From Candidatus Hydrogenedentota bacterium (GTDB lineage Bacteria > Hydrogenedentota > Hydrogenedentia > Hydrogenedentales > SLHB01), in the NCBI GenBank assembly GCA_019695095.1, contig JAIBAQ010000037.1:1-39864 (forward strand): a DNA stretch of 39,864 nt, given 5' to 3'. This document shows positions 15,950-38,408 of the stretch, one piece after another. Below the pieces are notes generated by a model that saw only the letters and a program-made list of their open reading frames with translations, was not told where the DNA came from and did not search any database. Position 1 is the first letter of the stretch; every line of letters begins with the position of its first letter. The translations under genes were made by a program, and so were the position numbers.

Positions 15950-15957
15950 GATGGAAC

Positions 15958-17917: not shown

Positions 17918-18922
17918 ATGTCGTTTATTGAGAACATCTACGAGCGTGCCCGTAGCCATCCTTCTACAATTGTCCTACCTGAGCCGGAGGACGAGCGCAC
18001 GTTGCGTGCGGCGATTCAGATTCGAGAGAAGCGTATCGCGGAAGTGGTGCTGGTAGGCAATCGCGAACAGGTTGAAACAGACTTGAAACGCCTTGGTGCT
18101 GGCGACAAATTTGAAATCGTTGACCCATCGGTCTCTCCTTGGCTCGATGAGTTTGTAGAAGAATACTTCGAGATGAGGAAGGCTAAGGGGGCAACTCTCG
18201 ACGACGCACGTAAGGCGATGCTGACTCCCATTCCGCACGGCATCATGATGCTGCACAAGAAGAAGGGCGACGGCCTTGTTGCCGGGGCAATCCATTCGAC
18301 GGGCGACACGCTTCGCCCAGCCCTGCAGATTCTCCGCACGGCCCCTGGCATCAAGACGGTGTCAAGTTTCTTTTTCATGACTTTTGGCGAGACGGCTTAT
18401 GTCTTCTCGGATTGCGGGTTGGTTGAAGATCCCACGGCAGAGCAGTTGGCAGAGATCGCGGTCTGTTCGGCGCAGTCGGCGATCAGTTTTGGGATTGATC
18501 CCATTGTGGCGATGCTGTCGTATTCCACGAAGGGCTCGGCCAAGAGCCATCTTACCGAGAAGGTGGTGACGGCGACACGTTTGGCGCAGGATCTGGCAAA
18601 GGAACGGTTTGGGCCGAATTCGCCCGTTCGAATCGATGGCGAGCTTCAGGCGGATTCAGCGCTTGTGGAAGCGGTGGGTTCGCGAAAGGCGCCCGGCAGC
18701 GACGTCGCCGGTAAGGCGAAGGTTCTTATCTTCCCTGATCTGAACTCGGGCAATATCGCGTACAAGCTCGTCGAACGGTTGGGAGGAGCGAGCGCCTACG
18801 GACCTATAGTTCAGGGTCTGCGTCTTCCCGCGAACGACCTATCGCGGGGGTGCAGCGCGGAAGATATCGTGGGTGTTGCCGCGGTGACCGCTATTCAAGC
18901 GAAATTAGGGGCGGCGTCGTAA
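17918..18922 (+). CDS. pta: Phosphate acetyltransferase
   Basis: This 334-residue protein is the length of a short-type (catalytic-domain only) Pta. It begins MSFIENIYERARSHPSTIVL and then PEPEDERTLRAA. Characteristic motifs include AGAIHSTGDTLRPALQI, SSFFFM, FSDCGLVEDPTAEQLAEIA, MLSYSTKGSA, DGELQADSALV and FPDLNSGNIAYKLVERLG. It interconverts acetyl-CoA and acetyl-phosphate in the cytosol. With the adjacent acetate kinase it makes ATP from acetyl-CoA, or activates acetate in reverse. ackA begins 35 bases after its stop. The sigma54 promoter at 17833, next to an NtrC-type activator gene, suggests that expression is switched by that two-component pair. Pta and the related phosphate butyryltransferase share this fold, but adjacency to ackA favours Pta. 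Confidence 0.95.
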   Translation: MSFIENIYERARSHPSTIVLPEPEDERTLRAAIQIREKRIAEVVLVGNREQVETDLKRLGAGDKFEIVDPSVSPWLDEFVEEYFEMRKAKGATLDDARKAMLTPIPHGIMMLHKKKGDGLVAGAIHSTGDTLRPALQILRTAPGIKTVSSFFFMTFGETAYVFSDCGLVEDPTAEQLAEIAVCSAQSAISFGIDPIVAMLSYSTKGSAKSHLTEKVVTATRLAQDLAKERFGPNSPVRIDGELQADSALVEAVGSRKAPGSDVAGKAKVLIFPDLNSGNIAYKLVERLGGASAYGPIVQGLRLPANDLSRGCSAEDIVGVAAVTAIQAKLGAAS

Positions 18923-18957
18923 ACTAAGCCGTCCTCAGATAAAGGTAGCAGGAAGAC

Positions 18958-20220
18958 ATGAAGATTCTGGTGTTGAACAGCGGTTCGTCGTCGGTCAAAT
19001 TCAAGATTTACGAGGTGAACGGCGACGATCGCGAACTGGCTCATGGGATGGTCGAACGAATTGGCCTTCAGCATGCTGACGTGAAATGCGGCTGTTGCCT
19101 GGTTCACGACCCCAAGTGCGCGGCGAAGTATTTTGGCGAGCCAGGGCAGTTGTGTATCCCCGATCACAACGTCGCAATCAATATGATTTGCGATCTGTTG
19201 CGAAGCGATCGTTGCGGCGTGATCAAAGACATTTCCGAGATTGCAGGAATTGGTCATCGGGTCGTGCACGGAGGCGAGGAGTTTTCCAACACGGCATTGA
19301 TCGATGACAAGGTCATTGAGGGCATTGAACGTTGCGCGAAGCTTGCGCCATTGCACAATCCGCCAGCGTTGTTGGGCATTCGCGCGTGCATGGAAGCGTT
19401 CAAGAACACGCCTCAAGCGGCTGTGTTCGATACTGCCTTCCACCGCTCGATCCCGGAGAAGGCGTTCCGGTACGCGATTCCCGAGGAGTTCTATCTCAAG
19501 CACGGCATCCGCAAGTACGGATTCCACGGCACCTCGCATCGCTATGTGTCGCGAGAAGCCGCGAAGTTGCTGGGCAAGCCGATTGAAGAGACGCGCATTA
19601 TCACGTGTCACCTCGGCAATGGCAGCAGCATTACCGCAGTCGCGGGCGGAAAGTCGATCGACACTACGATGGGTCTTACGCCGTTGGCCGGCGTGATGAT
19701 GGGGACGCGTCCGGGCGACCTCGATCCGTACATTCCCATTTTCATGATCAAGGAACTGGGAATGTCGGCGCCGGAAGTGGACAAAATCCTCAACAAACAC
19801 AGCGGCTTCGAGGGTATCTGCCATCACCACGATGTGCGCGAGATTGAGGCCTTGAGCAAAGACGGCGACAAGAATTGTTCGCTCGCACTGGAGATGTTCG
19901 CATATCGCGCTTCGCGATTCATCGGGGGGTCGGCAATGGCTCTGAACGGTGTCGACGCGATTGTCTTTACGGGCGGTATCGGCGAGCACGACGCCGACAT
20001 GCGGGCACGGATGCTTGCAAATGCAACGCATCTTGGCGTGAAGATCGATCCCGAGCGCAATGCGAAGCATGAGAAGGTGATTACGACGGACAGTTCGCCA
20101 ACCAAGGTCTTCGTGATTCCGACAAACGAGGAATTGGTCATCGCGCGCGATACGGCGTGGATCGTGAAGAAACTCGCGGAGCATAACGAATCGAAGGCGG
20201 TGGCTGCCGTCGCGAACTAG
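18958..20220 (+). CDS. ackA: Acetate kinase
   Basis: This 420-residue protein has the family motifs in order: LVLNSGSSSVKFKIYE, GIGHRVVHGGEEF, AVFDTAFHRSIPE, YGFHGTSHRYVS, CHLGNGSSITAV, MGLTPLAGVMMGTRPGDLDP and FTGGIGEHDADMR. An acidic-proline segment near the C-terminus (VIPTNEELVIARDT) is also typical. It transfers phosphate between acetyl-phosphate and ADP. A region rich in cysteine and histidine (VKCGCCLVHDPKC, about 42-54) is longer than in the E. coli enzyme and is noted as odd. AGGAAG precedes the ATG. A rho-independent terminator follows at 20243, so pta-ackA forms a two-gene operon. Confidence 0.96.
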   Translation: MKILVLNSGSSSVKFKIYEVNGDDRELAHGMVERIGLQHADVKCGCCLVHDPKCAAKYFGEPGQLCIPDHNVAINMICDLLRSDRCGVIKDISEIAGIGHRVVHGGEEFSNTALIDDKVIEGIERCAKLAPLHNPPALLGIRACMEAFKNTPQAAVFDTAFHRSIPEKAFRYAIPEEFYLKHGIRKYGFHGTSHRYVSREAAKLLGKPIEETRIITCHLGNGSSITAVAGGKSIDTTMGLTPLAGVMMGTRPGDLDPYIPIFMIKELGMSAPEVDKILNKHSGFEGICHHHDVREIEALSKDGDKNCSLALEMFAYRASRFIGGSAMALNGVDAIVFTGGIGEHDADMRARMLANATHLGVKIDPERNAKHEKVITTDSSPTKVFVIPTNEELVIARDTAWIVKKLAEHNESKAVAAVAN

Positions 20221-24513: not shown

Positions 24514-25719
24514 CTAGGCGGTCTTCTTGACGAACTTGTTCCCCATCAAAGCCAGTATCAACCCGAAGCAGCAAATGATACCCGAGATAATGAAAGCCGT
24601 GTTGGGATCTTTAGCGAATTTCGCTCCGACGTATGGTCCCAAGGCGCCCGCGATACTGAAGGCCGAGAACAGCAGTCCGTAGTTGAGCGTGAGGTTCTTA
24701 GGCCCGAATGCGTCGGCGCACATCGAGGGGAAGAGCCCCAGATACCCTCCGTAGCACAATCCAATGAAGATCACCAGCGGGATCAGTGTGTACGAACTCC
24801 CCGAGAACTTGGTCATCAGGAACATGGCCGAAGCGGTGATCAGGAACATGAACACCAGTGACAAATAGCGGCCAATCCGATCCGAAACCGCCCCCCAAAC
24901 CACGCGGCCGCTTGCGTTCGCCGCCGCCAGGATGCTCACGACGAACGCCGCTTTCATATCGTCCAGCTTTGCAAGTTCCATGGCAAACGGTTTCATCTGA
25001 CTGATAATCAGCAACCCGGAGAACGCTCCGCAGACGTATAGGACGTAAAGGAGCCAGAAGCGCCCTTGGCCCAGCATCTGGGTCCATGTCATGTTGACCA
25101 CCGGGGCTCCGCCTTGCGGCACCTTAGGGACGAAACCTTGCGGGAGGTAATCCTTGGGCGGACTGGTGATGAACCAGGATGCCGCGCAGATGACGACCAT
25201 GAAAACCACACCGAATATCTGGAAGGTTGTGAGAATGCCATAAAGCGAAATGAGTTTCTGGGCAACCGGGGCGATAATCACCGGCCCGAAACCAAGCGCG
25301 GCGACCACGATGCCGGAAGCCAGACCCCGCTTGTCGGGGAACCATTTCACGCTGGCGCCGACTGCCGCGCCATACGCCGCGCCGCTGGCCAACGACAGCA
25401 TCAGACCATAGGTTAAATAGATCCAGAGAAGGCTCTTCACCCCGAGACCGGCCAGGAGCAAGCCGCACCCAAAGACCACCCCGCCGATTAGGATCACCAT
25501 GCGCGGCCCTTTCGAATCAGCCAGTTTCCCCGCGACGATGGTACCGGCAGCGAGGAATCCCACATTGATCGTGAAAGCCCAGCCTATGGAGACTTTATCG
25601 CAGCCCAGAAATTCCATGAGCGGTTTGGCGTACACGCTGAACGCGTATGCGGATCCCTGGCAGAGATTCGAGCAGACTCCAGCTAGAAGCACGAGCCATC
25701 GGCGTTGGTCCGGATGCAT
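24514..25719 (-). CDS. MFS transporter of the oxalate/formate antiporter (OFA) type
   Basis: This 401-residue protein has about 12 membrane helices. It begins RRWLVLLAGVCSNLCQGSAY and then AFSVYAKPL, the typical OFA start. The A-motif-like loop GKLADSKGPRMV lies between helices 2 and 3. The second half starts after a central cytoplasmic loop (about 190-215) and has AVSDRIGRYLS at the corresponding position. The family exchanges small carboxylates such as oxalate, formate or other anions. It is the second gene of a minus-strand pair: a UroD-fold gene ends 178 bases upstream. In this context it may import or export a substrate or product of the methyl-transfer pathway (for example formate or acetate), but the substrate cannot be read from the sequence. 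Confidence 0.86.
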   Translation of the reverse strand: MHPDQRRWLVLLAGVCSNLCQGSAYAFSVYAKPLMEFLGCDKVSIGWAFTINVGFLAAGTIVAGKLADSKGPRMVILIGGVVFGCGLLLAGLGVKSLLWIYLTYGLMLSLASGAAYGAAVGASVKWFPDKRGLASGIVVAALGFGPVIIAPVAQKLISLYGILTTFQIFGVVFMVVICAASWFITSPPKDYLPQGFVPKVPQGGAPVVNMTWTQMLGQGRFWLLYVLYVCGAFSGLLIISQMKPFAMELAKLDDMKAAFVVSILAAANASGRVVWGAVSDRIGRYLSLVFMFLITASAMFLMTKFSGSSYTLIPLVIFIGLCYGGYLGLFPSMCADAFGPKNLTLNYGLLFSAFSIAGALGPYVGAKFAKDPNTAFIISGIICCFGLILALMGNKFVKKTA

Positions 25720-25897
25720 AGTACCCCCTCACTTTACTTCTGAAGAACCCCCATCGAGATTGCCCTGACGAGCAACCGAATGTGCAAAGACTACCCAGTT
25801 GAGAGAGCCTCCTTCAACTCCCTCCACACATACTGCAGCACGGTCCAGTCGACCCTTTCTTCGCAGAGACCGATCAGTCCACTCGGGCCGCCTTGTC

Positions 25898-26917
25898 CTA
25901 CACGGCTTCCAGAGGCTTTTCCCATGCCTCGAACACTGCCGCAATATTCTCAAATGGGTCATTGACGCCCCATTCGCATTGGGCGATGACGCCGCCTTGA
26001 CCGTCGTCGAGTGCGCGGCGGACGCGGCGGACGGCGTTGCGGACATCGTCGGACGTGCCGAACGGCATGATGCGTTGCCGGCAGATTTCTCCCCAGAAGG
26101 TGATCTTTCCTTTGAACGTCTTGCCTAGTTCTTCGATGTCCATGCAGAACAACTGGCTGTTGATTGCATCCACACCAATTTCGATCAAGTCGGGAATGAT
26201 GGCGCGAATATGGCCGTCGGAATGCATAAACACGTATTTGCCGGAGCTTTTGATGATCTCGCAATACTCGCGGTACAACGGCTTGAATAGCTCGCGCCAT
26301 AGGTCGGGATCGATGAGCAGATTGCTTTGCGCGCCCCAGTCGTCCATGAAACTCACGGCGTCGACTTTGGTGTTGGCCCACATCTCCAGTTCGCGAATGT
26401 TGAAATCGTGAATCATATTTCGCAACCGGAAGAACTCGTCGGTTTGCATGAGCACGTCGGCAAGCATGTTTTCGGTGCCGCGCAGAAACTGCATGCGTTC
26501 GAACGGGCGCACGTGGGTGCCGGCGCGCATGAACTTGTCGGTGGATTGGCAGTAGGCGTTGGTTGCCGCGAGATCGACTCCTTCCAGCAATTCCCACGGC
26601 GGGGTGTAACCGTCAAGCGCCGACCAATCCGCGAGCGGGGGATTCTTCACTTCGCCGGAAACACCGACTTCGCCGACGGTCCATTCGCAACCCCATTCGT
26701 CGGTGTAGGTGCCAACAACGCCTTCCGTGCCTTTCTGGCGGAGTGATTTGCCATAGCGGAAGAGTGGCGCGCCGATATCCGAAGGATACAGCTCGTACAT
26801 GCGTTTAAGTTCATTGGCTCGATTCAGGCGCACGCCGGGAAGTGTCCAGAGATCTCTGGGCACACGGTCCGGACGGTCTGATTCAAGTGCCTTGACGACA
26901 CGTTCGCGCGAAGTCAT
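25898..26917 (-). CDS. UroD-fold methyltransferase-like protein 1
   Basis: This 339-residue protein is of the uroporphyrinogen decarboxylase superfamily. It starts MTSRERVVKALESDRPDRVP, the standard opening of this methyltransferase branch, and has the late SSGKYVFMHSDGHIRAIIPD strand. In MtaA-type enzymes the zinc ligands are H-x-C plus a later C. Here the first part reads H232-S-D234 with Asp instead of Cys, while a later Cys is kept in IAQCEWGVNDP (C314). Metal binding is therefore uncertain. The porphyrin-binding residues of true HemE are not apparent. It is divergent from the plus-strand methyl-transfer operon and shares a 137-bp intergenic region with it. GGGGA precedes the ATG. The methyl donor or acceptor is unknown. 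Confidence 0.85.
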   Translation of the reverse strand: MTSRERVVKALESDRPDRVPRDLWTLPGVRLNRANELKRMYELYPSDIGAPLFRYGKSLRQKGTEGVVGTYTDEWGCEWTVGEVGVSGEVKNPPLADWSALDGYTPPWELLEGVDLAATNAYCQSTDKFMRAGTHVRPFERMQFLRGTENMLADVLMQTDEFFRLRNMIHDFNIRELEMWANTKVDAVSFMDDWGAQSNLLIDPDLWRELFKPLYREYCEIIKSSGKYVFMHSDGHIRAIIPDLIEIGVDAINSQLFCMDIEELGKTFKGKITFWGEICRQRIMPFGTSDDVRNAVRRVRRALDDGQGGVIAQCEWGVNDPFENIAAVFEAWEKPLEAV

Positions 26918-26946
26918 GATATTTCCCCATTACGGTTCGAGGCCAA

Positions 26947-26971
26947 CATGGTGCGCGTCGGGGTCACCATG
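26947..26971. promoter_or_regulatory. Inverted repeat in the divergent methyltransferase promoter region
   Basis: CATGGTG (26947-26953) and CACCATG (26965-26971) form a perfect 7-bp inverted repeat with 11 bases between. It lies 30 bases upstream of the minus-strand UroD start and 84 bases before the plus-strand one, a good place for an operator controlling both. TACAAT at 27004-27009 could be a -10 box for the plus strand, but its -35 is poor. Confidence 0.45.
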
Positions 26972-27054
26972 CAGCTAATTCACAAGCGGGCCGACGCTGT
27001 AATTACAATTCGAGGTGGGAGTATAGCATCTCGCAGGGGGAGGATGTTAACGGC

Positions 27055-28230
27055 ATGGATTACGCCGAGATACAGACGATGATTTCAAGGCGGGGGGACG
27101 ACGCAAAGGTTGCTCTGGCAACGACTAACGGTCTTACCTTGCGGGAGCGATTCAGGCGAACGATGTCATTTCAGGAGGTCGACAGACGGCCCAATTTTGA
27201 GTTTGGTTATTGGGACCGAACGCTTCAGGTCTGGCATCGGCAGGGTTTGCCTGAGCATGTCGTGGATGAAGCATCGGCATACGAGTACTTCGGCATCGAG
27301 AGTTGGCACATGATCGGGGCGCATTCGAATCCGGTGCCTCGTTTTGAGGCGTCGGTATACGAAGTGCGGGGCGATTATTACGTGTTTCGAGATCAACTGG
27401 GGTGCATCGCGCAGATAAACAAGTTCGGAGATCAGTCGATCCCTCACTTCATCGATTTTCCGGTGAAAGATCGTGCTTCATGGATGCCCTACCTGGAGTT
27501 GCTCGAGGTGGACCGGCCTGAGCGGTGGACTGGTTTTGAAGAGTCGATTGCCACTGCAAAGGAGACGGACAAGCCGGTGGGTGTTTATGGGGGGAGCCTA
27601 CTTGGTGTACCGCGCAATTTGATGGGGTTTGAGCGAATCGCCACGATGGCATACGAGGATCCAGATTTCCTGGCGCACATCGTCGATGCATTTGGCTCGT
27701 GTGCGGTGGGCGTGCTTGAGAGGGTGTTGTCCCGCGTTGAAGTCGATTTCTGCATGGGTTGGGAAGACATTTGCTTCAACATGGGGCCGATTGTACCGCC
27801 GGAGTTTATGCGAGCGGTGGCGGGTCCGTGGTACCGGCGAATCGCGGATTTGCTCGCCGCGCACGGTTGCACGGTGTATACGTCGGATACGGATGGCAAC
27901 ATTCTCCCGATCATCGACACCTTTCTGGACAACGGGCTCACCACGATGTTCCCCGTTGAGGTGCATGCGGGGACGGATCCATGTATGATACGGGCCAAGT
28001 ACGGTAAGCGTGTGAAGCTTTGGGGGGGAGTCTGCAAGCTTAAGCTCGCGGAATCGCGTGCGGCAATCGATGCGGAGTTGGATCGTTTGAGGCCGTGTGT
28101 CGAAGAAGGGGGATTCATTCCGGGCGTCGATCATCGCGTGCCAGCCGATGTTCCGCTCGCGAATTACCTCTACTATCTTGATCGCAAACGCGAAGTGCTC
28201 GGGGTCGGAGGGGAGCCCAAATACGCATGA
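27055..28230 (+). CDS. UroD-fold methyltransferase-like protein 2
   Basis: This 391-residue protein has an N-terminal extension of about 25 residues before the usual TLRERFRRTMSFQEVDRRPN start. It has the fold's MGWEDICFNMGPIVPPEFMR segment and a later YTSDTDGNILPIIDTF. At the position of the MtaA zinc motif H-x-C it has T-S-D, and no later Cys is in place (GGFIPGVDHRVPADVP). The standard zinc site thus seems lost, and its role in methyl transfer is uncertain. GGGGGAGGA at 27035-27043 is a strong ribosome binding site. Its stop overlaps the next gene's ATG (28227-28230), giving tight coupling with UroD-fold protein 3. Neither true HemE nor MtaA is a safe name. Confidence 0.83.
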   Translation: MDYAEIQTMISRRGDDAKVALATTNGLTLRERFRRTMSFQEVDRRPNFEFGYWDRTLQVWHRQGLPEHVVDEASAYEYFGIESWHMIGAHSNPVPRFEASVYEVRGDYYVFRDQLGCIAQINKFGDQSIPHFIDFPVKDRASWMPYLELLEVDRPERWTGFEESIATAKETDKPVGVYGGSLLGVPRNLMGFERIATMAYEDPDFLAHIVDAFGSCAVGVLERVLSRVEVDFCMGWEDICFNMGPIVPPEFMRAVAGPWYRRIADLLAAHGCTVYTSDTDGNILPIIDTFLDNGLTTMFPVEVHAGTDPCMIRAKYGKRVKLWGGVCKLKLAESRAAIDAELDRLRPCVEEGGFIPGVDHRVPADVPLANYLYYLDRKREVLGVGGEPKYA

Positions 28231-29303
28231 TGACCAGTGTAGAGCGTATACACAATATTCTGAAGCGCAAACCTGTCGATCGAATCGGCGTTTTCGAGCA
28301 TTTCTGGGGCGACACCCACAAGAAATGGAGTGCCGAGGGGCGCATCAACGCGATGGAATCGATGGAGGATCACTTCGGATTTGACCTGCAACTGTGCTGG
28401 CCCTTCAATGCAGTCGCCAAACTCGATTTCGAACCCGAGCTCGTTGAGGAGACCGAAGAAACCATACTTGTGCGCGACGGTAACGGGGCGGTATTGCGGC
28501 GGCACAAGCTGCATGATACGACTCCGGAGCACGTCGACTTCTTAGTGAAGGAGCGGGCCGGTTGGGAAGAGCACATCAAGCCGTATCTGAAAGCGGATCG
28601 CGCGCGTATCGATTTCGCGGCGTACCGCCGCATCAAGCAGGAAGCGGCCGCGCGCAACCGGTTCTTCGCGTGGTGCGGATGCAATGTATTCGAGTTGATG
28701 CATCCCGTTTGCGGGCACGAGTACATGCTGATGGGCATGGCCGTTGACCCTGAATGGATCTGCGAGATGGTCGACACGTATGCGCAGCTCACCATCGACT
28801 TGATGGAGATTTTGTTTGCGGAAGAAGGCGCTCCCGACGGAGTGTGGTTCTACGAGGACATGGGATTCAAGGGGCGGCCCTTCTTCTCGTGCGACATGTA
28901 CAAAGAGATTGTGCAGCCGGGGCACTGCAAAACCATCGACTATGCGAAGTCGAGGAATTTGCCGGTGGTAATGCATTCATGTGGTTATGTGGCTCCGCTG
29001 GTACCGGGGATGATTGAAGCAGGCATCGACTGCCTCCAAGTGATTGAAGTCAAAGCCGGTATGGATCTGCTGGAGCTTCATCGCCAGTATGGCGACCGCC
29101 TGTCGTTTATGGGGGGGATTGACGTCAGAGTCCTGTATTCGAATGACAAGGAGCAGATAGCGCGCGAGTTGGAGGCCAAAGTGCCTGCCGTGAAAAGCGG
29201 GTACGGGTATGTGCTTCACTCCGACCATTCCATACCGGATCAGGTAGAGTATGACAGTTACCGGTTCTTTGTTGACCGGGGACTTGAGCTAGGGCAATAT
29301 TAA
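28227..29303 (+). CDS. UroD-fold methyltransferase-like protein 3, MtaA-like
   Basis: This 358-residue protein overlaps the previous gene by 4 bases. Its core carries FWGDTHKKW near the start, DGVWFYEDMGFKGRPFFSC and, near 248-255, VVMHSCGYVAPLV. H250-S-C252 matches the zinc H-x-C motif of MtaA/MtbA-type methylcobamide:CoM methyltransferases. The third ligand of MtaA, a Cys near the C-terminus, is replaced by a histidine-containing LHSDHSIP segment (H331/H334). It is the best candidate in this locus for an enzyme that takes the methyl group from the corrinoid protein encoded next. The acceptor could be CoM-like, tetrahydrofolate or another thiol; the sequence does not tell. ATG 28230 is an alternative start. 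Confidence 0.85.
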   Translation: MMTSVERIHNILKRKPVDRIGVFEHFWGDTHKKWSAEGRINAMESMEDHFGFDLQLCWPFNAVAKLDFEPELVEETEETILVRDGNGAVLRRHKLHDTTPEHVDFLVKERAGWEEHIKPYLKADRARIDFAAYRRIKQEAAARNRFFAWCGCNVFELMHPVCGHEYMLMGMAVDPEWICEMVDTYAQLTIDLMEILFAEEGAPDGVWFYEDMGFKGRPFFSCDMYKEIVQPGHCKTIDYAKSRNLPVVMHSCGYVAPLVPGMIEAGIDCLQVIEVKAGMDLLELHRQYGDRLSFMGGIDVRVLYSNDKEQIARELEAKVPAVKSGYGYVLHSDHSIPDQVEYDSYRFFVDRGLELGQY

Positions 29304-29346
29304 GTGTGTTTGTCTCTGGGAGAAAGGAGACAGGAAGGGGAGCCTT

Positions 29347-30015
29347 ATGTCTGAAATCATCGAACGAATTGCGCAATGCATTGAACGGGGGAAGGTCAAC
29401 GCCGCGTCGCCGTATCCGCCGGATCTCAAAGGTCAAGACGGTGCGGACGAACTAACGGCCGCCGCGCTTCAGATGGGGATTCCCCCGAGTGATGTGTTGG
29501 GCCAGGGATTGGTTATCGGCATGAACGCCATCGGTCGCAAGTTTAGTGAGAACAAGGTGTTTGTTCCGGATTTGCTGATGGCATCCAAGGCGATGCAGGC
29601 GGCCATGAAGCACTTGAAGCCTTATTTTGAATCGGGGCAAGCGCAGCATCGCGGTACGTTCATAGTCGGTACAGTTCAGGGCGACTTGCACGATATCGGC
29701 AAGAACCTTGTCAGCATGGTCATGGAAGGCGGCGGCTGGGAAGTCATTGACCTCGGGGTCGACGTCAATGCCGACAAGTTCTTGAATGCGCTGAAGGACC
29801 ATCCGAAAGCGGTAGTGGGCCTGAGCGCGTTGCTCACGACGACGATGGTTAATATGGAGAAGACGGTTGCCGCGATTCGGCAGCAGAGCCCGGATACGGT
29901 CGTCATCGTCGGCGGTGCTCCGCTTACGTCGGAATTTGCGAAGAAGATTGGCGCGAACGCCTATTTCCCCGATCCGCAGGGCGCACTCGATTATCTGACC
30001 GGCGTGGCTGCGTAG
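29347..30015 (+). CDS. mtaC: Corrinoid protein, MtaC/MtbC-like
   Basis: This 222-residue protein has an N-terminal helical cap domain (about 1-95, with VFVPDLLMASKAMQAAMKHL) and a Rossmann-like B12-binding domain. The DxHxxG motif is present as GDLHDIGKN: D113, H115 (lower axial cobalt ligand) and G118. Further motifs are VIDLGVDV, VGLSALLTTTMVNM and VIVGGAPLTSEFAKKIGANA. It carries methyl-cobalamin between the substrate methyltransferase (MtaB-type, 30984) and a UroD-fold acceptor enzyme. GGAGACAGGAAGGGGAG lies just before the ATG. Dimethylamine (MtbC) or trimethylamine (MttC) proteins are similar, but the MtaB gene in the same operon favours MtaC. Confidence 0.92.
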   Translation: MSEIIERIAQCIERGKVNAASPYPPDLKGQDGADELTAAALQMGIPPSDVLGQGLVIGMNAIGRKFSENKVFVPDLLMASKAMQAAMKHLKPYFESGQAQHRGTFIVGTVQGDLHDIGKNLVSMVMEGGGWEVIDLGVDVNADKFLNALKDHPKAVVGLSALLTTTMVNMEKTVAAIRQQSPDTVVIVGGAPLTSEFAKKIGANAYFPDPQGALDYLTGVAA

Positions 30016-30021
30016 TGCGTG

Positions 30022-30047
30022 GCGCGGGCAGGCTCCGCCTGCCGCGC
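30022..30047. promoter_or_regulatory. GC hairpin between mtaC and the next gene
   Basis: GCGCGGGCAGGC and GCCTGCCGCGC enclose TCC; the stem is about 11 bp with one bulge. It lies 7 bases after the mtaC stop and 14 bases before the next likely start. It could tune the ratio of corrinoid protein to downstream enzymes by stabilising the upstream mRNA. There is no T run. Confidence 0.5.
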
Positions 30048-30060
30048 AGAAGGGACAGTC

Positions 30061-30963
30061 GTGTCTATGAAGACATTGCGCGAAGAGATTGCCTCCGGGA
30101 AAGTACTGGTATCCGATGGCGGATGGGGAAGCTTTCTCGTGGCTGCCGGTCTGCAACCAGGGGAATGTCCCGAGTTGTGGAACGTCTCGCATCCCGATGT
30201 GGTGCGTGACATTGCGAAGCAATATGCCGATGCCGGCGCCGACATGGTGATGACCAACAGTTTTGGCGGGACACGAATAAAGCTGGAAGCCTACGGGCTT
30301 GCCGATCGTGTCGCTGAATTGAACGAGGCGGCCGCCCGGTTGTCGCGCGAGGTTGCGGGCGACTCTGTGCACGTATTGGCATCAGTCGGGCCTACCGGGA
30401 AGTTCTTGATGATGGGCGATGTGACCGAGGACGAGCTCTACGCGCAATACAGCGAGCAGGCCATCGCGCTGGAACGCGGCGGCGCCGATGCATGTAGTGT
30501 CGAAACGATGTCCGCGTTGGATGAAGCGGGCATCGCGGTGCGCGCGGTGCGCGAGAATACCAAACTCGAGGTAGTGGCATCGTTCACGTTCACCACGCAA
30601 ACCGATACCGGGTATCGAACCATGATGGGTGTGGGCGCGGCGGACATGGCAGCCGCCATGCTCGAAGCAGGCGCTCACATTCTTGGCATCAATTGTACGT
30701 TGGGACCGCGCGAGATGGTCAGCGTGGCGCGCGAGCTTCGCGCTGCGGCGCCTCAGACGCCCATTCTCGTTCATCCCAACGCGGGCAGTCCTATTCGCGG
30801 CGACGACGGTTCGGTGTCTTATCCAGAGACGCCGGAGTCGATGGCCGCGTGCGTACCGGATTTGATAAATGCTGGGGTCAACATCATAGGGGGGTGTTGC
30901 GGCACGGGCCCGGCTCATATTCGCGCTATTGCGCAAGCGGTGGCAGCGGCTAGAGGCGCTTAG
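30061..30963 (+). CDS. Homocysteine S-methyltransferase family protein
   Basis: I chose GTG 30061, since GAAGGGA lies 5 bases before it; ATG 30067 is also possible. The barrel has SDGGWGSFLVAAGLQPGECP, MTNSFGGTRIKLEAYGLADR and ASVGPTGKFL. The zinc-type cysteines are in GINCTLGPREM and NIIGGCCGTGPAHIRAIAQA. This is the Hcy-binding domain of MetH and BHMT, but about 300 residues only, so no folate or cobalamin domain is included. Inside a corrinoid methyl-transfer operon it may take the methyl group from the neighbouring corrinoid protein to homocysteine or another thiol, or release methyl groups to folate. This is inference. It could also be an unrelated methionine-pathway enzyme caught in the operon. 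Confidence 0.87.
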   Translation: MSMKTLREEIASGKVLVSDGGWGSFLVAAGLQPGECPELWNVSHPDVVRDIAKQYADAGADMVMTNSFGGTRIKLEAYGLADRVAELNEAAARLSREVAGDSVHVLASVGPTGKFLMMGDVTEDELYAQYSEQAIALERGGADACSVETMSALDEAGIAVRAVRENTKLEVVASFTFTTQTDTGYRTMMGVGAADMAAAMLEAGAHILGINCTLGPREMVSVARELRAAAPQTPILVHPNAGSPIRGDDGSVSYPETPESMAACVPDLINAGVNIIGGCCGTGPAHIRAIAQAVAAARGA

Positions 30964-30983
30964 GTCGCCTGGAAGGTTCCGTG

Positions 30984-32354
30984 ATGCGTTTCTTTTCCTC
31001 TTTGGCAGTGCCGGAGGCACGTGCCCTTGTATTTGGTGTTTGTCCCAATCCTGTTCGCGTCACTCCACACATTACCGTGGGCAGCGGGGAGACGATCCCC
31101 GAGGTCAACTACATACTTCCTCACGGCAGCGAGGTAAGCGCGTCTACCATAGACGATGTCGTGACCTTGTATGCGCGAATGGCCGAAGGCGTGTTGGAGC
31201 GCGCCTACGATCTCGGCATTGCCAAGCTGATCATCGAAATCGAGCTCGTGTTTGAGTTGACCCTCAATCCATCGTGGGGCGCGCGTGTGATCCGCGTTAC
31301 CCGTGAAGCCATGGATCGGTACGAGGCCAAGGGCGTCCATTCGGCGCTTCGGACGACGGTTGCCGATATACGCGACCGAGTCAGGCCGCCACGTTTGCGC
31401 ACGAGCGACGAGACGCGACTTGTGTTTGAGTGTTTTGAGGCGTGCGCGGCAGACTCTGACATTCTGTCCATCGAATCAACCGGAGGTAAGGAAGTCTCCG
31501 ACGATGCTTTGCTGAATTGCGACATCGGCGGTGTGTTGTTCGCGATGGGTACGCTGGGCTCGAACGACATGGAGTTCTTGTGGACAAAGATCTGCAAGAT
31601 TGCCGATACGTACGGCAAGGTCGCGGGGGGCGATGCAGCCTGCGGTTTTGCGAATACGGCCATGCAGCTTGCTCGCAAACGCATGCTGCCGACTGTGTTT
31701 GCGGCGATGGTGCGCGCAGTCGGGGCGGCGCGATCGCTGGTCGCAATCGAATGTGGCGCGAAGGGACCCGACAAGGACTGCGCGTACGAAGGTCCGGTGC
31801 TGAAAGCCATCGCGGGGATTCCCATCGCGATGGAAGGCAAGTCCGCGGCGTGCGCGCATTCGAGTCCAGTCGGCAATGTGGCGATGGCTTGCTGCGACAC
31901 GTGGAGCAACGAGTCCGTGCCGTTTGTGCAGCTATTCGGTGGGTTCTCACCAGAGGTATCGCTTGAGCAGCTATGGTACGACTGCAAGTTGATGAACGAG
32001 GCCACGCGATCCGGCGACGCGGTGCGCGTACGCGATCTGCTCACGTTGTCGGACGTGCGGACGAGTGCCGAAGCGTTGGTGCTTGCACCAGAGTCGTGTA
32101 TGCGCATTGCGAAAGCGATCATTTCGACACCGGATCGTTTGCAGCGGGCGCATCGGGCAGCGAAAGAGGCGCTGGCGATTATTGACGAGGCGGCGGGCGA
32201 GGGGCGTTTGTCGATCCCCGAAGTCGAGCAAAATTGGATAGGGATGATTCGAGCGGGCATGGATGAATTTGAGTCGCTTGGCGACGGGGCGGCCGCGCAT
32301 TATGCCAAGCAGTACGCACACCTCTTCGTGCCTTCCGAATACGGTCTAACGTAA
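30984..32354 (+). CDS. mtaB: Methanol:corrinoid methyltransferase, MtaB type
   Basis: This 456-residue protein has a length close to Methanosarcina MtaB and is clearly homologous. Shared motifs are TIPEVNYILP, NPSWGARVIR, CFEACAADSDILSIESTGGK, NDMEFLW, GGDAACGFANTAMQ, GPDKDCAYEG, EGKSAACAHSSPVGN and CCDTWSNESV. The zinc ligands Glu164, Cys220 and Cys269 of the M. barkeri enzyme correspond here to E164, C220 and C266, all kept. It breaks the C-O bond of methanol and loads the methyl group onto the MtaC corrinoid. ATG 30984 follows GGAAGG by 7 bases; GTG 30981 is adjacent. Bacterial relatives occur in acetogens such as Sporomusa and Moorella. It is the last gene of the operon, 20 bases after the homocysteine-type gene. 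A related alcohol or ether substrate is not excluded. Confidence 0.92.
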   Translation: MRFFSSLAVPEARALVFGVCPNPVRVTPHITVGSGETIPEVNYILPHGSEVSASTIDDVVTLYARMAEGVLERAYDLGIAKLIIEIELVFELTLNPSWGARVIRVTREAMDRYEAKGVHSALRTTVADIRDRVRPPRLRTSDETRLVFECFEACAADSDILSIESTGGKEVSDDALLNCDIGGVLFAMGTLGSNDMEFLWTKICKIADTYGKVAGGDAACGFANTAMQLARKRMLPTVFAAMVRAVGAARSLVAIECGAKGPDKDCAYEGPVLKAIAGIPIAMEGKSAACAHSSPVGNVAMACCDTWSNESVPFVQLFGGFSPEVSLEQLWYDCKLMNEATRSGDAVRVRDLLTLSDVRTSAEALVLAPESCMRIAKAIISTPDRLQRAHRAAKEALAIIDEAAGEGRLSIPEVEQNWIGMIRAGMDEFESLGDGAAAHYAKQYAHLFVPSEYGLT

Positions 32355-33357: not shown

Positions 33358-35301
33358 GTGTTAAGAATTGTTGCTCGATACTGTTGGGTACCGGTCGCGT
33401 GCATCGGTTTTGCCGTGATATTGCACGCCACAGGATGCGCAAGTGCCCCGCATGGGAAGAATCTCAAGGAGGGTTCACACTCGTTGTTCGTTGCCCCTGG
33501 GGGCAACGACGCGATCAGCGGTGAACGACGCGCCCCATTTGCCACGCTTCACGCCGCACTCGACTCCACACGCAAACTAGGCACGGAAAGGCCGCGCCGC
33601 ATCATGCTGCTTCCCGGTGAGTACTTCCTGGACGCGCCTCTAACGCTGAACGCCGCGGATAGCGGGCTCACCATCGAGGCTTCCAAGCGCGGCGACGTGA
33701 CGCTGTACGGTGGAAAGCCAATCGCAGGATGGGAACGCGACGGCGATCGCTTCTGGAGCGCAAAGGTATCCGATGCGCAGCGCGACGCCCGAATGCTTGT
33801 CGTGAATGGCCGCTTCTGCAAACGCGCGCGCCTGCCTGAGTCCGGATACTTCGAGCATCTTACGGTCTTTGACGTGCCGTGGATGAGTACAACCGGCGGC
33901 GGATGGAAACGCAAACCCACCCACGAAGAACTGACCACGCTCACATACAACCCCGCTGATTTGGGGGAGTGGCTGGACGTACGAAGCGCTGAGTTGACGG
34001 TCTACCACATGTGGGACGAATCGGTAGTCGGTGTTGCGGCCAATGACGCGCAAGCTCATACGCTGACCTTCAGCAATGAAGCCGGGCATCCTGCCGGGGC
34101 ATTCGGGGTGAAAAAGTATGTTGTCTGGAATGTGCGAGAGGGCATGACCCAACCGGGTCAATGGTACCTTGACCGTGCCGCGGGAAGAGTCGTGTATTGG
34201 CCGCTTCCTGGCGAGGATATGGAAAGCGCGGCGGCGATTCTGCCGACGATGGAATCCATTGTCGTTCTTGACTCCAAGAATGGTCCGGTGAAGAACGTGA
34301 CCTTGCGCGGGTTAAGACTCTCCGTGACCAATACACCACTCAAAGCGGGAGGATTCGGGGCATCCGCTTTTGCGGGCGCAATTCAGGTTGGCAAGTCAGA
34401 GAACTGCCGCATCGAAGATGTGGGCATAGCGAACGTGAACGGCCAGGGAATCCAGACGTGGGGGAGTGATGGGCTTCTCATTGCGCGGTGTCACGTGCAC
34501 GATACGGGTGCGGGAGGCATTCGCGCAGGCGGAGGTGTCGAAGTAAGCGACTGCCATATTCATCACGTGGGACGTACCTATCCCAGCGGGATTGCGCTTT
34601 CCGGCAACGAGGCGGAAGGGAAGAGCGTGCGTTTCCTGCACAACCTGATTCACGATACGACGTACAGTGGGATCGTGTGCGGCGGTGACAATCACGTGAT
34701 CGAAGGGAACCACATCCATCACGTGATGCAGGAACTACATGACGGGGCGGGCATCTACGTTGGTTTTGGCAAGGGCATGCGTTTGGCGGGCAATTGGATT
34801 CACGACATCGAATCTGAAGGTGGTTATGGCGCGTCCGCGTATTACCTGGACGAACAGGCCGAGAACTGCGTCGTAGAGGGCAATCTTTCGACGGATTGCG
34901 CGTGGCCGTCGCACAATCACATGGCGAAGAACAACACGATTCGCAACAATGTGTTCATCTGTAGCGGTGACGCGAAGTTAACATTTCCTCGTTCTTCGGG
35001 ATTTACTTTTGAGCGCAATGTCGTTGTTGTGAAAGGGCGACTCACCGTAACGAATCCCAACGCGATAGTATCGATGCCGAACAACGTTTTCTATAGTGAA
35101 AAAGGAAAGGTGGAGGGGATAGCGCTTGACCAGTACAAAGCGACGGATGCCACCGATTTGACGTTACGTGACGGGTCGGTGTGCGCGGACCCGAAGCTGG
35201 CCTCGTGCAAGAAAGGTCGGCCAGTGTTTTCAGATGCGCACTTGTTGCGTGCTCTGGGTATCAAGCCGGTTGATGTGCGCGATGTGGGACCGAGGCGCTG
35301 A
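33358..35301 (+). CDS. Secreted right-handed beta-helix lipoprotein
   Basis: This 647-residue protein starts at GTG 33358, preceded by GAAAGGAG. The N-terminus has a lipoprotein signal with lipobox ATGC (residue about 27). A DUF1565-like opening follows (LFVAPGGNDAISGERRAPFA, TLHAALDSTRKL), then IMLLPGEYFLDAPLTLN, a pattern of pectate-lyase-type helices. The central part (about 320-560) shows beta-helix coils such as IEDVGIANVNGQGIQTWGSD, ARCHVHDTGAGGIRAGGG and NHVIEGNHIHHVMQ. Such proteins usually bind or cleave acidic or sulfated polysaccharides or act as glycosidases. No decisive catalytic triad is recognised. The many His and Asp in the coils could be metal sites. It lies before a secreted FAD oxidoreductase, 90 bases apart. 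Confidence 0.8.
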   Translation: MLRIVARYCWVPVACIGFAVILHATGCASAPHGKNLKEGSHSLFVAPGGNDAISGERRAPFATLHAALDSTRKLGTERPRRIMLLPGEYFLDAPLTLNAADSGLTIEASKRGDVTLYGGKPIAGWERDGDRFWSAKVSDAQRDARMLVVNGRFCKRARLPESGYFEHLTVFDVPWMSTTGGGWKRKPTHEELTTLTYNPADLGEWLDVRSAELTVYHMWDESVVGVAANDAQAHTLTFSNEAGHPAGAFGVKKYVVWNVREGMTQPGQWYLDRAAGRVVYWPLPGEDMESAAAILPTMESIVVLDSKNGPVKNVTLRGLRLSVTNTPLKAGGFGASAFAGAIQVGKSENCRIEDVGIANVNGQGIQTWGSDGLLIARCHVHDTGAGGIRAGGGVEVSDCHIHHVGRTYPSGIALSGNEAEGKSVRFLHNLIHDTTYSGIVCGGDNHVIEGNHIHHVMQELHDGAGIYVGFGKGMRLAGNWIHDIESEGGYGASAYYLDEQAENCVVEGNLSTDCAWPSHNHMAKNNTIRNNVFICSGDAKLTFPRSSGFTFERNVVVVKGRLTVTNPNAIVSMPNNVFYSEKGKVEGIALDQYKATDATDLTLRDGSVCADPKLASCKKGRPVFSDAHLLRALGIKPVDVRDVGPRR

Positions 35302-35406
35302 ACCGGGCTGTAGTCGAGGTATGCGTCAGTCTTAGTTTGCGCCAAACGCGGTAGATGAGCCCCGGTGCCACTGATAAGCAATCTGTGAGTTTTGGAGGAG
35401 TCGGTC

Positions 35407-37335
35407 GTGCGTAATTCACTGTCAGTGCTTGTGCTCATTACCACTGTCGCATTTGTGAATGGACAGGCAGCCGCGATTGAATCGCGCTCGTGCGACGTAA
35501 TCGTAGTCGGGGCGACTCCAGGTGGAATTGGAGCGGCGGTAGCGGCGGCGCGACTGGGGCACAGCGTTGCGCTTTTCGAGTACTACGGGCATGTGGGGGG
35601 TATGTCGGCGAGCGGACTCGGGAAGTCGGACGTCGAAACGGCGGGGGCCATTGGCGGTCTTTGGGATGAATTCGTGGGCCGCGTGCTCGCGTATTATACG
35701 AAGACCTATGGCGCGGATTCAGAGCAGGTGAAGGCATGCCGTGGCGGCTATTTTTATGAGCCTTCTGTTGCGGAGCGAATCTTCAACGAGATGCTGGCCG
35801 AGCAACCCAAGATACACGTATTCCTGCGGCATCGGTTGGATAGCGCGGCACGAAGCGGGAAGCGCGTGAAATCAGTGCGTGTGACCAATCGCGAAACTGG
35901 GGAACAAGTCGAGTTCTCAGGAAAGGTTTTCATCGACGCGACGTACGAAGGCGATCTGGCGGCGTTTGCGGGAGCCGAGTATCGTCTAGGGCGCGAAAGC
36001 CGCGACGAATTCGACGAGGCGCACGCAGGTGTGATTTACATGGATCACACGACTCGCGCCCTGCTTCCCGGAACTACGGGTCTTGGCGACGACCGTCTGG
36101 TCGCGTACACCTACCGGCTGTGTTTTAGCTCCGATCCAGCTAACCGGGTCTATCCGGAAGTGCCGCCCGATTACGACCGCAAACGTTACTTGAATTATCT
36201 GCTCGACCTGAGGCTGGGCCGCATCAAATCGGCACTGCTTGCGTTGTCCATCGCTCCAATTCCGAATCAGAAGTATGACGTGAACATGAAGCCTTGGCCA
36301 TTGGGCTTCCCGTTTGCGGAGGAAAACACGGGATATCCGGAGGCATCGTGGGCGGAACGCGAAGCGATTATGCAGCGCATTCGCAATATCACCCTTGGAC
36401 TCGTGTACTTTTTGCAGAACGACCCTGAAGTTCCCGAAGCTGACCGTGAGGCGGCGCGTCAGTATGGGTTCGCAAAAGACGAGTTTACGGATAACGGTAG
36501 TTTCCCGTTTCAGTTCTATGTGCGCGAGGCACGGCGCGTTGTGGGTGAATATACGATCAGTGAGCGCGACCTGACCTATGCACCCGAGTCCTTTCGCGCG
36601 CCGGTCCATGCCGATAGCATTTGCGCGGGTGAGTTTCCCATCGATTCGTTTCCCACGCGCAAGTACGAGAGTGGTCACGAAGACGCGCTTGAAGGATACA
36701 TCCTCATGCTGAATCGGTACACGCGTCCCTATCAGATTCCCTATCGCGCGATAGTCCCGAAGAAGGTCGATGGCCTATTGGCGCCCGTTCCCGCATCCGC
36801 GACGCACATTGCTTTTTCGTCGGTTCGACTTGAGCCGACTTGGATGTGCATGGGGCAGGCGGCGGGAGTAGCCGCGCATCTCGCAATCAAACAGCGCGTG
36901 CAGCCGCGCCACATTCCCGTGCAGGAACTTCAGGATATCCTGTTGTCGCAAGGCCAGGTGATTACATATTTCGACGACTTACCGAAAGACCACCCTGACT
37001 TTGCCGCGTTTCAACGTCTGGGAACGAGGGGGTTCTTCGATAGTTATCAGGCGAACCCAGAGGGTTCATTTCGCTATAGCGACGCCGACGTATGGGCGCG
37101 GCGTGTGCTTAAACTTGCAGGTGGCGATCCTTCAATCATGCTTCCTGAAGAACCCGGCGAATGCCTCTCGAATCCCGATCTCATGAGAATGATGCGAGTC
37201 ATTTGCGATGAATTGCGAATCGGTGACGACGAAGTAGATGCGCTTTTGAACCTCATACCCGACTCGCAGGGTACGGCCACACGGAGAGTCGCTTGCGTGG
37301 TTTTCGATGGAGTACTTCGCGCGAAGAAGAACTGA
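35407..37335 (+). CDS. Secreted FAD-dependent oxidoreductase
   Basis: I chose GTG 35407, since GGAGGAG ends 6 bases before it; it gives 642 residues. A signal peptide (about 1-22) is followed by CDVIVVGATPGGIGAAVAAA, an FAD dinucleotide-binding GxxxGG variant. Then come LFEYYGHVGGMSASGLG, typical of the FAD_oxidored (PF12831) family, and VFIDATYEGDLAAFAGAEYR. A late motif, HIAFSSVRLEPTWMCMGQAA, closes the FAD site. The family includes putative sugar or xanthan-related dehydrogenases in polysaccharide-degrading PVC-type bacteria; no substrate is established here. As it is exported, FAD must be inserted before or after transport. It likely works with the beta-helix lipoprotein encoded 105 bases upstream, though this is context inference. 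Confidence 0.84.
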   Translation: MRNSLSVLVLITTVAFVNGQAAAIESRSCDVIVVGATPGGIGAAVAAARLGHSVALFEYYGHVGGMSASGLGKSDVETAGAIGGLWDEFVGRVLAYYTKTYGADSEQVKACRGGYFYEPSVAERIFNEMLAEQPKIHVFLRHRLDSAARSGKRVKSVRVTNRETGEQVEFSGKVFIDATYEGDLAAFAGAEYRLGRESRDEFDEAHAGVIYMDHTTRALLPGTTGLGDDRLVAYTYRLCFSSDPANRVYPEVPPDYDRKRYLNYLLDLRLGRIKSALLALSIAPIPNQKYDVNMKPWPLGFPFAEENTGYPEASWAEREAIMQRIRNITLGLVYFLQNDPEVPEADREAARQYGFAKDEFTDNGSFPFQFYVREARRVVGEYTISERDLTYAPESFRAPVHADSICAGEFPIDSFPTRKYESGHEDALEGYILMLNRYTRPYQIPYRAIVPKKVDGLLAPVPASATHIAFSSVRLEPTWMCMGQAAGVAAHLAIKQRVQPRHIPVQELQDILLSQGQVITYFDDLPKDHPDFAAFQRLGTRGFFDSYQANPEGSFRYSDADVWARRVLKLAGGDPSIMLPEEPGECLSNPDLMRMMRVICDELRIGDDEVDALLNLIPDSQGTATRRVACVVFDGVLRAKKN

Positions 37336-37444: not shown

Positions 37445-38374
37445 ATGTCGGAAAACACGCCGGTAGTCTCGGTGGTGGTTCCCATATTTAATGAGGAACC
37501 GAATATTCGTCCTCTTATCGAGCGTCTCACGGCAGCTTTAGAATCGAGTGGGCGAAGCTACGAGATTCTTGCCGTCGACGATGGCAGTTCGGATCGTAGT
37601 GTTGAGATTCTCAGGGAATTTCGCGCCCGCGATTCACGGCTGCGCATTATCCGGTTGAGCCGGAACTTTGGTCAGAGCCCGGCCTTGTTTGCGGGCTTTG
37701 CCAATGTCCGAGGCCAGATTGTGGCTACAATCGACGCCGATCTGCAGAATCCTCCTGAAGAGTTGCCGAAACTGATCGCCAAGATTGAAGAGGGCTATGA
37801 CTTTGTTATCGGGTGGCGTCAACGGAGGCAGGATTCAGTCCTGCGCAAATTGCCGTCGCTGCTTCTGAATGCGTTGGTGCGTCGCCTGACGAAAGCCGGG
37901 TTCCGAGACATCGGGTGTTCATTGAAGGTGTTTCGACGTGAAGTAACTGACCGTTTGGCCCAATTCAATCACCGTTCCCGCTACCTGCCGGCTGAAGTAG
38001 CCTGGCTTGGCGTACGGACGTGCGAGGTTGAAGTGGCGCATAGCGAGCGCGCGGCAGGCACAAGCAAGTATGGCGTACTTCGGCTCTTCCGTACCGCGTT
38101 CGACCTTGTTACGAGCATTACGTCCGCGCCACTGCAGTTCATAGGGTTGGTGGGCTGGTTGTTTGCCATAGGCGGATTTGCGCTGGGGGCCCGGGTGGTC
38201 TACATCCGTATCGTGGACGGTGACATTAACCAAATGGGATCGGTGATAGCCGTGTTGCTGTTCCTGCAAGGCGTCCACCTGATAAGTATGGGCCTGATTT
38301 GCGAGTACATCAGCCGAATCTATATTGAAGTCCAGAACCGCCCTTATTACATCATCAAGGATATCATCGAGTGA
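37445..38374 (+). CDS. GT2 glycosyltransferase, polyprenyl-phosphate type
   Basis: This 309-residue protein has a GT-A catalytic domain (about 1-225) and two C-terminal membrane helices (about 232-256 and 268-295), as in the GtrB/ArnC/DPM1-like branch. Motifs are VSVVVPIFNEEPNIRPLIER, VDDGSSDRS, DADLQNPPEELP (DxD-like) and DIGCSLKVFRREV. It would transfer a nucleotide sugar to undecaprenyl phosphate on the inner face of the membrane for lipid A, O-antigen or glycoprotein decoration. The ATG at 37445 follows a perfect AAAAGGAGGA site. TTGACT (37381) and TACCTT (37405) could be a promoter with 18-bp spacing, not strong. The next gene begins 34 bases after it, so they probably form a pair. Confidence 0.9.
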   Translation: MSENTPVVSVVVPIFNEEPNIRPLIERLTAALESSGRSYEILAVDDGSSDRSVEILREFRARDSRLRIIRLSRNFGQSPALFAGFANVRGQIVATIDADLQNPPEELPKLIAKIEEGYDFVIGWRQRRQDSVLRKLPSLLLNALVRRLTKAGFRDIGCSLKVFRREVTDRLAQFNHRSRYLPAEVAWLGVRTCEVEVAHSERAAGTSKYGVLRLFRTAFDLVTSITSAPLQFIGLVGWLFAIGGFALGARVVYIRIVDGDINQMGSVIAVLLFLQGVHLISMGLICEYISRIYIEVQNRPYYIIKDIIE

Positions 38375-38408
38375 CGTTATTTACTTCGTCCGTTCGGGTG
38401 GTTCAGTC

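Follow-up and report, generated by a model that had tools for sequence, protein, structure and literature searches.

Bacterial mtaB genes are usually read as signs of competition with methanogens or of acetogenesis. The two half-reactions of concern here are each established for their own family, MtaB/MtaC on the one hand and MetH on the other; that they are combined in one system is what we infer below. Genes for MtaB are widespread in bacteria, and their expression in anoxic soils is known (PMC10805028); in the methanol system of acetogens the methyl group is passed by MtaA to tetrahydrofolate (THF) (PMC13391211). In MtgBCDE of Ruegeria pomeroyi and other marine bacteria, a split methionine synthase also demethylates glycine betaine, the demethylase and the homocysteine module sharing one cobalamin protein (PMC12478193); related logic applies to core methionine synthases that work without folate and are supplied by corrinoid proteins (PMC7857596). 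Here we describe a five-gene operon on contig JAIBAQ010000037.1 (positions 1–39,864, forward strand; hereafter the window) of the Candidatus Hydrogenedentota assembly GCA_019695095.1, which encodes two UroD-fold proteins, a corrinoid protein, a homocysteine S-methyltransferase and MtaB. We propose, with a probability of about one half, that it specifies a modular, folate-independent corrinoid methyl-transfer system in which methyl groups would run from methanol through the corrinoid protein to homocysteine.

The operon occupies positions 27055–32354 of the forward strand in the order UroD2–UroD3–corrinoid protein–homocysteine S-methyltransferase–MtaB, with intergenic spacings of -4, 43, 51 and 20 bases (Table 1). 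An earlier note on this DNA, made from the sequence alone, placed it in a Hydrogenedentota-like bacterium, in agreement with the named relatives of the window, all metagenome-assembled genomes (MAGs) of Candidatus Hydrogenedentota. The homocysteine S-methyltransferase gene (30067–30963), which lies between the corrinoid gene and mtaB, 20 bases upstream of the latter, was missing from that note, and its presence in the operon changed the interpretation, away from acetogenesis. The product carries the GINC and GGCC motifs with their three zinc cysteines, matches Thermotoga maritima MetH (1q7m) at 1e-45 and is nearest to the N-terminal module of YitJ/MetH and to BHMT-type enzymes. Its open reading frame opens at a GTG at 30019, and alignment of starts gives the conserved ATG at 30067; the frame of MtaB opens at a GTG at 30981, and residues are counted here from the ATG at 30984.

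MtaB is as the earlier note described it. The protein covers positions 4–459 of the 460 in the PF12176 profile over 450 residues (494.8 bits), and aligns with Methanosarcina barkeri MtaB (2i2x, chain A) over 452 residues with a score of 322 bits. E164, C220 and C266 fall on the zinc ligands E164, C220 and C269 of 2i2x, and the ligands are identical in 89 of 89 sequences compared. The MtaB proteins of M. barkeri and of four Firmicutes, acetogens or their kin, share 110 invariant positions, of which the Hydrogenedentota clade retains 93. Identity is 39% to M. barkeri and 43–45% to the Firmicutes proteins, while these two groups are mutually 35–37% identical; because the window protein resembles either group more than the groups resemble one another, methanol is favoured as the substrate, short of proof, and to judge from sequence MtaB-type methanol activation is most likely the donor reaction.

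The phylogeny suggested by the earlier note places the protein in a Hydrogenedentota clade of 12 (SH-aLRT 99). MtaB is present in 21 of the 68 Hydrogenedentota genomes that form our phylum comparison set, and relatives are encoded at more than 550 loci of the public genome set; the nearest 80 loci span many phyla, and among them no MtaB from outside Hydrogenedentota is more than 49% identical to the window protein. A second type of MtaB, 42–44% identical to the first, occurs in Hydrogenedentota at six loci (L035, L036, L037, L161, L162 and L163). The three sampled in the tree (L035–L037) join a Verrucomicrobia sequence and are unrelated to the window clade; no UroD, corrinoid or homocysteine methyltransferase gene was detected near the second-type loci.

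The corrinoid protein, labelled MtaC-like in the earlier note, does have the reported motif (D113-L-H115-D-I-G118), but the label is loose: it scores 189 bits with the MtgC model NF047996 and 101–109 bits with MtaC models whose cut-offs are 420–450. By these profile scores it is MtgC-like rather than an MtaC. In a tree, a single clade unites corrinoid proteins from loci that have MtaB and from loci that lack it; its neighbours are the MtaB-linked MtgC-like proteins found in Bacteroidota, and the proteins of the Firmicutes acetogens are separate. Some Bacteroidota loci (including L099:9423-11914) combine MtaB, an MtgC-like corrinoid protein, CobW and RACo, with no THF or homocysteine methyltransferase nearby.

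Compared with MtaABC of acetogens (Moorella, Sporomusa, Acetobacterium; PMC13391211) and of Methanosarcina (2i2x), the window shares the MtaB fold and zinc ligands, and a separate corrinoid protein and an ATP-dependent RACo-family activase in the genome are common to both. It differs in the MtgC-like character of the corrinoid protein, in the addition of UroD2 and UroD3, and in having a homocysteine methyltransferase in the place of a pterin- or coenzyme M-type MtaA. A pterin-type gene stands beside MtaB in six Firmicutes loci, including those of Moorella, Sporomusa and Clostridium luticellarii; none was found near the Hydrogenedentota MtaB loci. Among window-clade MtaB loci with context, 6 of 11 are linked to a homocysteine methyltransferase gene; among the others, 1 of 73 is (Fisher p = 8e-6, a descriptive value since the loci are related).

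That single case is an Armatimonadota contig (L066) with the arrangement radical SAM–UroD–MtaB–UroD–UroD2-like–corrinoid protein–homocysteine methyltransferase, that is, the same families in a different order. The order seen in the window is itself retained at three related loci (L024, L025 and L026), with 56–82% identity per gene. At L024, L025 and L028 a gene of the PF02965 type, the activation domain of MetH, lies between the corrinoid and homocysteine genes; PF02965 was matched directly in L024 and further members were found as homologues, that of L028 by homology only. Such a stand-alone module is not in the window, and the window's genome has PF02965 only inside MetH. Several Bacteroidota likewise have a stand-alone activation protein close to MtaB; at L069, one such case, the order is UroD–MtaB–corrinoid protein–activation gene. 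These proteins are probably reactivators of corrinoid dependent on S-adenosylmethionine (SAM), replacing RACo in Hydrogenedentota and Bacteroidota. Genes of this kind were located at L024:8055-8768, L028:3031-3783, L069:3759-4619 and L155:5627-6541, scoring about 41–43 bits to PF02965 where detected.

Both a stand-alone PF02574 module and a stand-alone cobalamin module are present in the window and, because three relatives carry the activation gene between the two, the locus resembles, as far as gene content can tell, a split methionine synthase in which MtaB has replaced the folate module. By analogy, MtgBCDE would be the functionally nearest known system: it too has a separate cobalamin protein, a PF02574 module and a demethylase that supplies this cobalamin protein, and its PF02965-type reactivation gene has a counterpart in the relatives of the window. 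The donor in the window is MtaB (and UroD) rather than MtgB, there is no pterin module MtgD, and a full MetH coexists. The glycine-betaine-coupled version of a split methionine synthase is thus already known, and what would be new here is a methanol version; no description of MtaB coupled to a homocysteine methyltransferase was found in the literature searched, subscription papers being mostly outside its cover. The more specific proposal, of a methanol-dependent, folate-free methionine synthase in Hydrogenedentota and Armatimonadota (a dissected MetH with its folate module replaced by MtaB and UroD donors that share one corrinoid protein), we offer tentatively, as a possibility that could well prove wrong.

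Several observations weigh against the methanol-to-homocysteine reading. The window MtaB scores 425 bits with the NCBIfam equivalog model for MtaB, a methanogen-centred model with a cut-off of 720 that the Armatimonadota protein likewise does not reach (436.6 bits), and a long stem of 0.7 changes per site leads to its clade. The homocysteine gene is missing from L029 and L033, where synteny is otherwise kept, and at four more loci (L027, L030, L031 and L034) MtaB is present but the module is not. No Rfam match to a cobalamin or SAM riboswitch was obtained in the window or ten related loci. A full-length MetH, folate domain included, is encoded in the same genome, so that the operon would be a second route to methionine. 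Moreover, the trio UroD2–UroD3–corrinoid protein occurs without MtaB at five loci, and UroD2 orthologues (11 in the phylum above 360 bits, the window's own excluded) are also found in genomes lacking MtaB of the window type. MtaB was therefore rejected as the defining core; the corrinoid protein is better regarded as the hub, with MtaB as an optional donor. Companions of the trio at these loci include the activation gene (L155), a homocysteine methyltransferase with another UroD (L158), and a UroD–thioredoxin fusion with CobW (L157). It seems that one corrinoid protein serves interchangeable donors (the UroD pair, MtaB) and acceptors.

Under the proposed mechanism, methanol would bind the zinc of MtaB and its methyl group would pass to Co(I) of the corrinoid protein. 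The methylated protein would then dock with the PF02574 protein, where the zinc-bound thiolate of homocysteine would accept the methyl group to give methionine. That corrinoid protein would also receive methyl groups from the UroD-fold proteins, which would draw on at least one further methylated substrate. Cobalt that had become inactive Co(II) would be rescued by an activase encoded elsewhere in the genome or, in some relatives, by the stand-alone MetH-type activation protein. The earlier note was correct that no RamA-type activase lies in the window; one RACo-type activase is found on contig C115 (PF14574, 260 bits; AcsV-like, 449 bits), and RACo is present in 51 of the 68 phylum genomes.

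Other compounds are probably the source of the methyl groups that the UroD-fold proteins bring. The earlier note had reported one MtaA-like UroD with an H-x-C motif. The motif is there, as H250-S-C252 of UroD3, and is invariant among aligned relatives; the region, however, holds three UroD-fold proteins, and the MtaA label is loose, since scores of 37–55 bits with MtaA models (UroD1 about 55, UroD3 about 43, UroD2 none) compare with cut-offs of 235–400, which none reaches. UroD1 has MHSDGH in place of H-x-C and is divergent at the same position in L024, L025 and L033 (62–66% identity). UroD2 and UroD3 are matched by hhalign at 99.6%, and the profile alignment sets the UroD2 segment VYTSDTDGN opposite H-S-C; an H-G-C string at residue 270 of UroD2 lies off the MtaA-type zinc position. 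Predicted structures did not lead to substrates: the UroD3 model (pLDDT 65, moderate) matches only the UroD and MtaA (4ay7) folds, and the poor model of UroD2 (pLDDT 54.5) was uninformative. A precedent for methylation of a corrinoid protein by donors of this kind comes from O-demethylases and dehalogenases with the UroD fold (MtvB, OdmB, VdmB, MtoB, CdmB; PMC13222342), but no sequence match of the window proteins to the solved members was found, and UroD3 gives only a weak match to a HemE structure. One of these donors, CdmB, is able to work without zinc (PMC13222342), and by analogy UroD2 may do so too.

The arrangement of several UroD-fold proteins around one corrinoid protein, with proposed methyl transfer toward thiols, recalls the type 1 mlp gene clusters (PMC10418091), and raises the alternative that the locus recycles methyl-sulfur or methyl-selenium compounds, the UroDs taking methyl groups from thioethers or selenides for delivery through the corrinoid protein to homocysteine, with MtaB as a side branch. 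The number of UroDs per locus, H-S-C in UroD3, the homocysteine acceptor and the biochemical logic of that work all speak for this, as does the fusion at L157 (L157:1205-3547), an MtaA-family UroD with a C-terminal thioredoxin-like domain that scores 162–165 bits to MtaA/CmuA subfamily models and lies beside a CobW GTPase. We nonetheless consider it unlikely, given that the window UroDs fall so far below the MtaA-family cut-offs, that the zinc motif is missing from UroD1 and UroD2, that the window has no in-cluster Ram/RACE gene (its activase being on another contig), and that MtaB would be left unexplained. Alternatively, the UroDs could move methyl groups from methoxylated compounds to the corrinoid protein, homocysteine taking what is needed and MtaB, run in reverse, freeing the surplus as methanol. 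The MtaB half-reaction is probably near-reversible, the trio is the conserved core with MtaB as an add-on, and L029 and L033 have the trio and MtaB without another in-operon acceptor. To our knowledge, however, all characterised MtaB systems run from methanol, and L028 and L032 (both short contigs) have MtaB with the corrinoid and homocysteine genes but without UroD; such an outlet strikes us as improbable.

Two further alternatives send the methyl group to THF. Direct formation of methyl-THF from the methyl-corrinoid protein has a precedent in the bidirectional MtgD (PMC12478193), and a MetH with a folate domain is available. The genome, a draft MAG of 6.77 Mb in 405 contigs and 95% complete, was searched in six frames for the families in question: the only pterin-binding domains are those of MetH and of a FolP-like gene beside a GlmM-like gene, the usual folP setting, and no stand-alone THF methyltransferase of the MtgD/MtgA type was found. 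With no pterin-type gene near Hydrogenedentota MtaB either, we regard this route as quite unlikely. The earlier note had suggested methylotrophic acetogenesis or methyl fermentation, in which the methyl group would pass on from THF into the Wood–Ljungdahl pathway and pta-ackA would make ATP. MtaB, the corrinoid protein, the activase and pta-ackA are indeed all present. But the same searches detected neither CdhC/AcsB (PF03598) nor FTHFS (PF01268), a further difference from the MtaABC hosts, and acetogenesis would require several genes to be missing by chance from this one MAG; in addition, the operon has its homocysteine enzyme where Firmicutes loci have the pterin-type gene. MTHFR (PF02219) was not found either; since it is present in 62 of the 68 phylum genomes, operon-bearing relatives included, a single absence from one draft is weak evidence and probably an assembly gap, and the argument that methionine depends on the operon for want of MetF was dropped. 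Acetogenesis is highly improbable; the locus is real and conserved, but a role in acetogenesis is not supported.

Among the neighbouring genes, Pta (357 bits, pta model) and AckA (462 bits) are adjacent at 17918–20220, with a histidine kinase and a sigma-54-type regulator (14393–17700) upstream. They are present as the earlier note stated and are ordinary genes of acetate formation, which belong to fermentation in general and are no specific mark of acetogenesis. The OFA-type transporter of that note is a genuine major facilitator superfamily (MFS) gene that scores above the cut-off as an L-lactate transporter (398.9 against 320 bits); as it was not found at the syntenic loci, it was set aside as a component and probably lies outside the methyl-transfer module. 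Upstream intergenic regions gave no convincing alignment, and promoter matches were at chance level. Downstream of the operon, 33358–37335 encodes a right-handed beta-helix protein and, after it, a large FAD-dependent oxidoreductase (PF12831), and 37445–39692 an undecaprenyl-phosphate-type glycosyltransferase followed by an ATP-grasp protein resembling carbamoyl-phosphate synthase.

Table 1. The methyl-transfer operon and its upstream neighbours (positions in the window).
Feature	Position	Strand	Support and remarks
OFA/SfMCT-type MFS transporter	24514..25719	-	NF049980, 398.9 bits; neighbour gene
UroD1, UroD-fold protein, divergent neighbour	25898..26917	-	PF01208, 61.9 bits
UroD2, divergent UroD-fold protein, operon gene 1	27055..28230	+	PF01208, 25.2 bits
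UroD3, UroD-fold protein with H250-S-C252	28227..29303	+	PF01208, 59.2 bits; 4-base overlap with UroD2
Corrinoid (cobalamin-binding) protein, DxHxxG, 222 aa	29347..30015	+	PF02607 and PF02310
Homocysteine S-methyltransferase, MetH/BHMT-type module	30067..30963	+	PF02574, 243.7 bits
MtaB, methanol–corrinoid methyltransferase family	30984..32354	+	PF12176, 494.8 bits

A THF methyltransferase adjoins MtaB in only 6 of the 73 non-Hydrogenedentota loci examined, all of them in Firmicutes. For one lineage the linked homocysteine enzyme suggests what the methyl acceptor is, and with it that methanol may serve as a source of methyl groups for methionine and SAM, and not as an energy substrate. If true, this would extend the idea of the split methionine synthase from glycine betaine to methanol.

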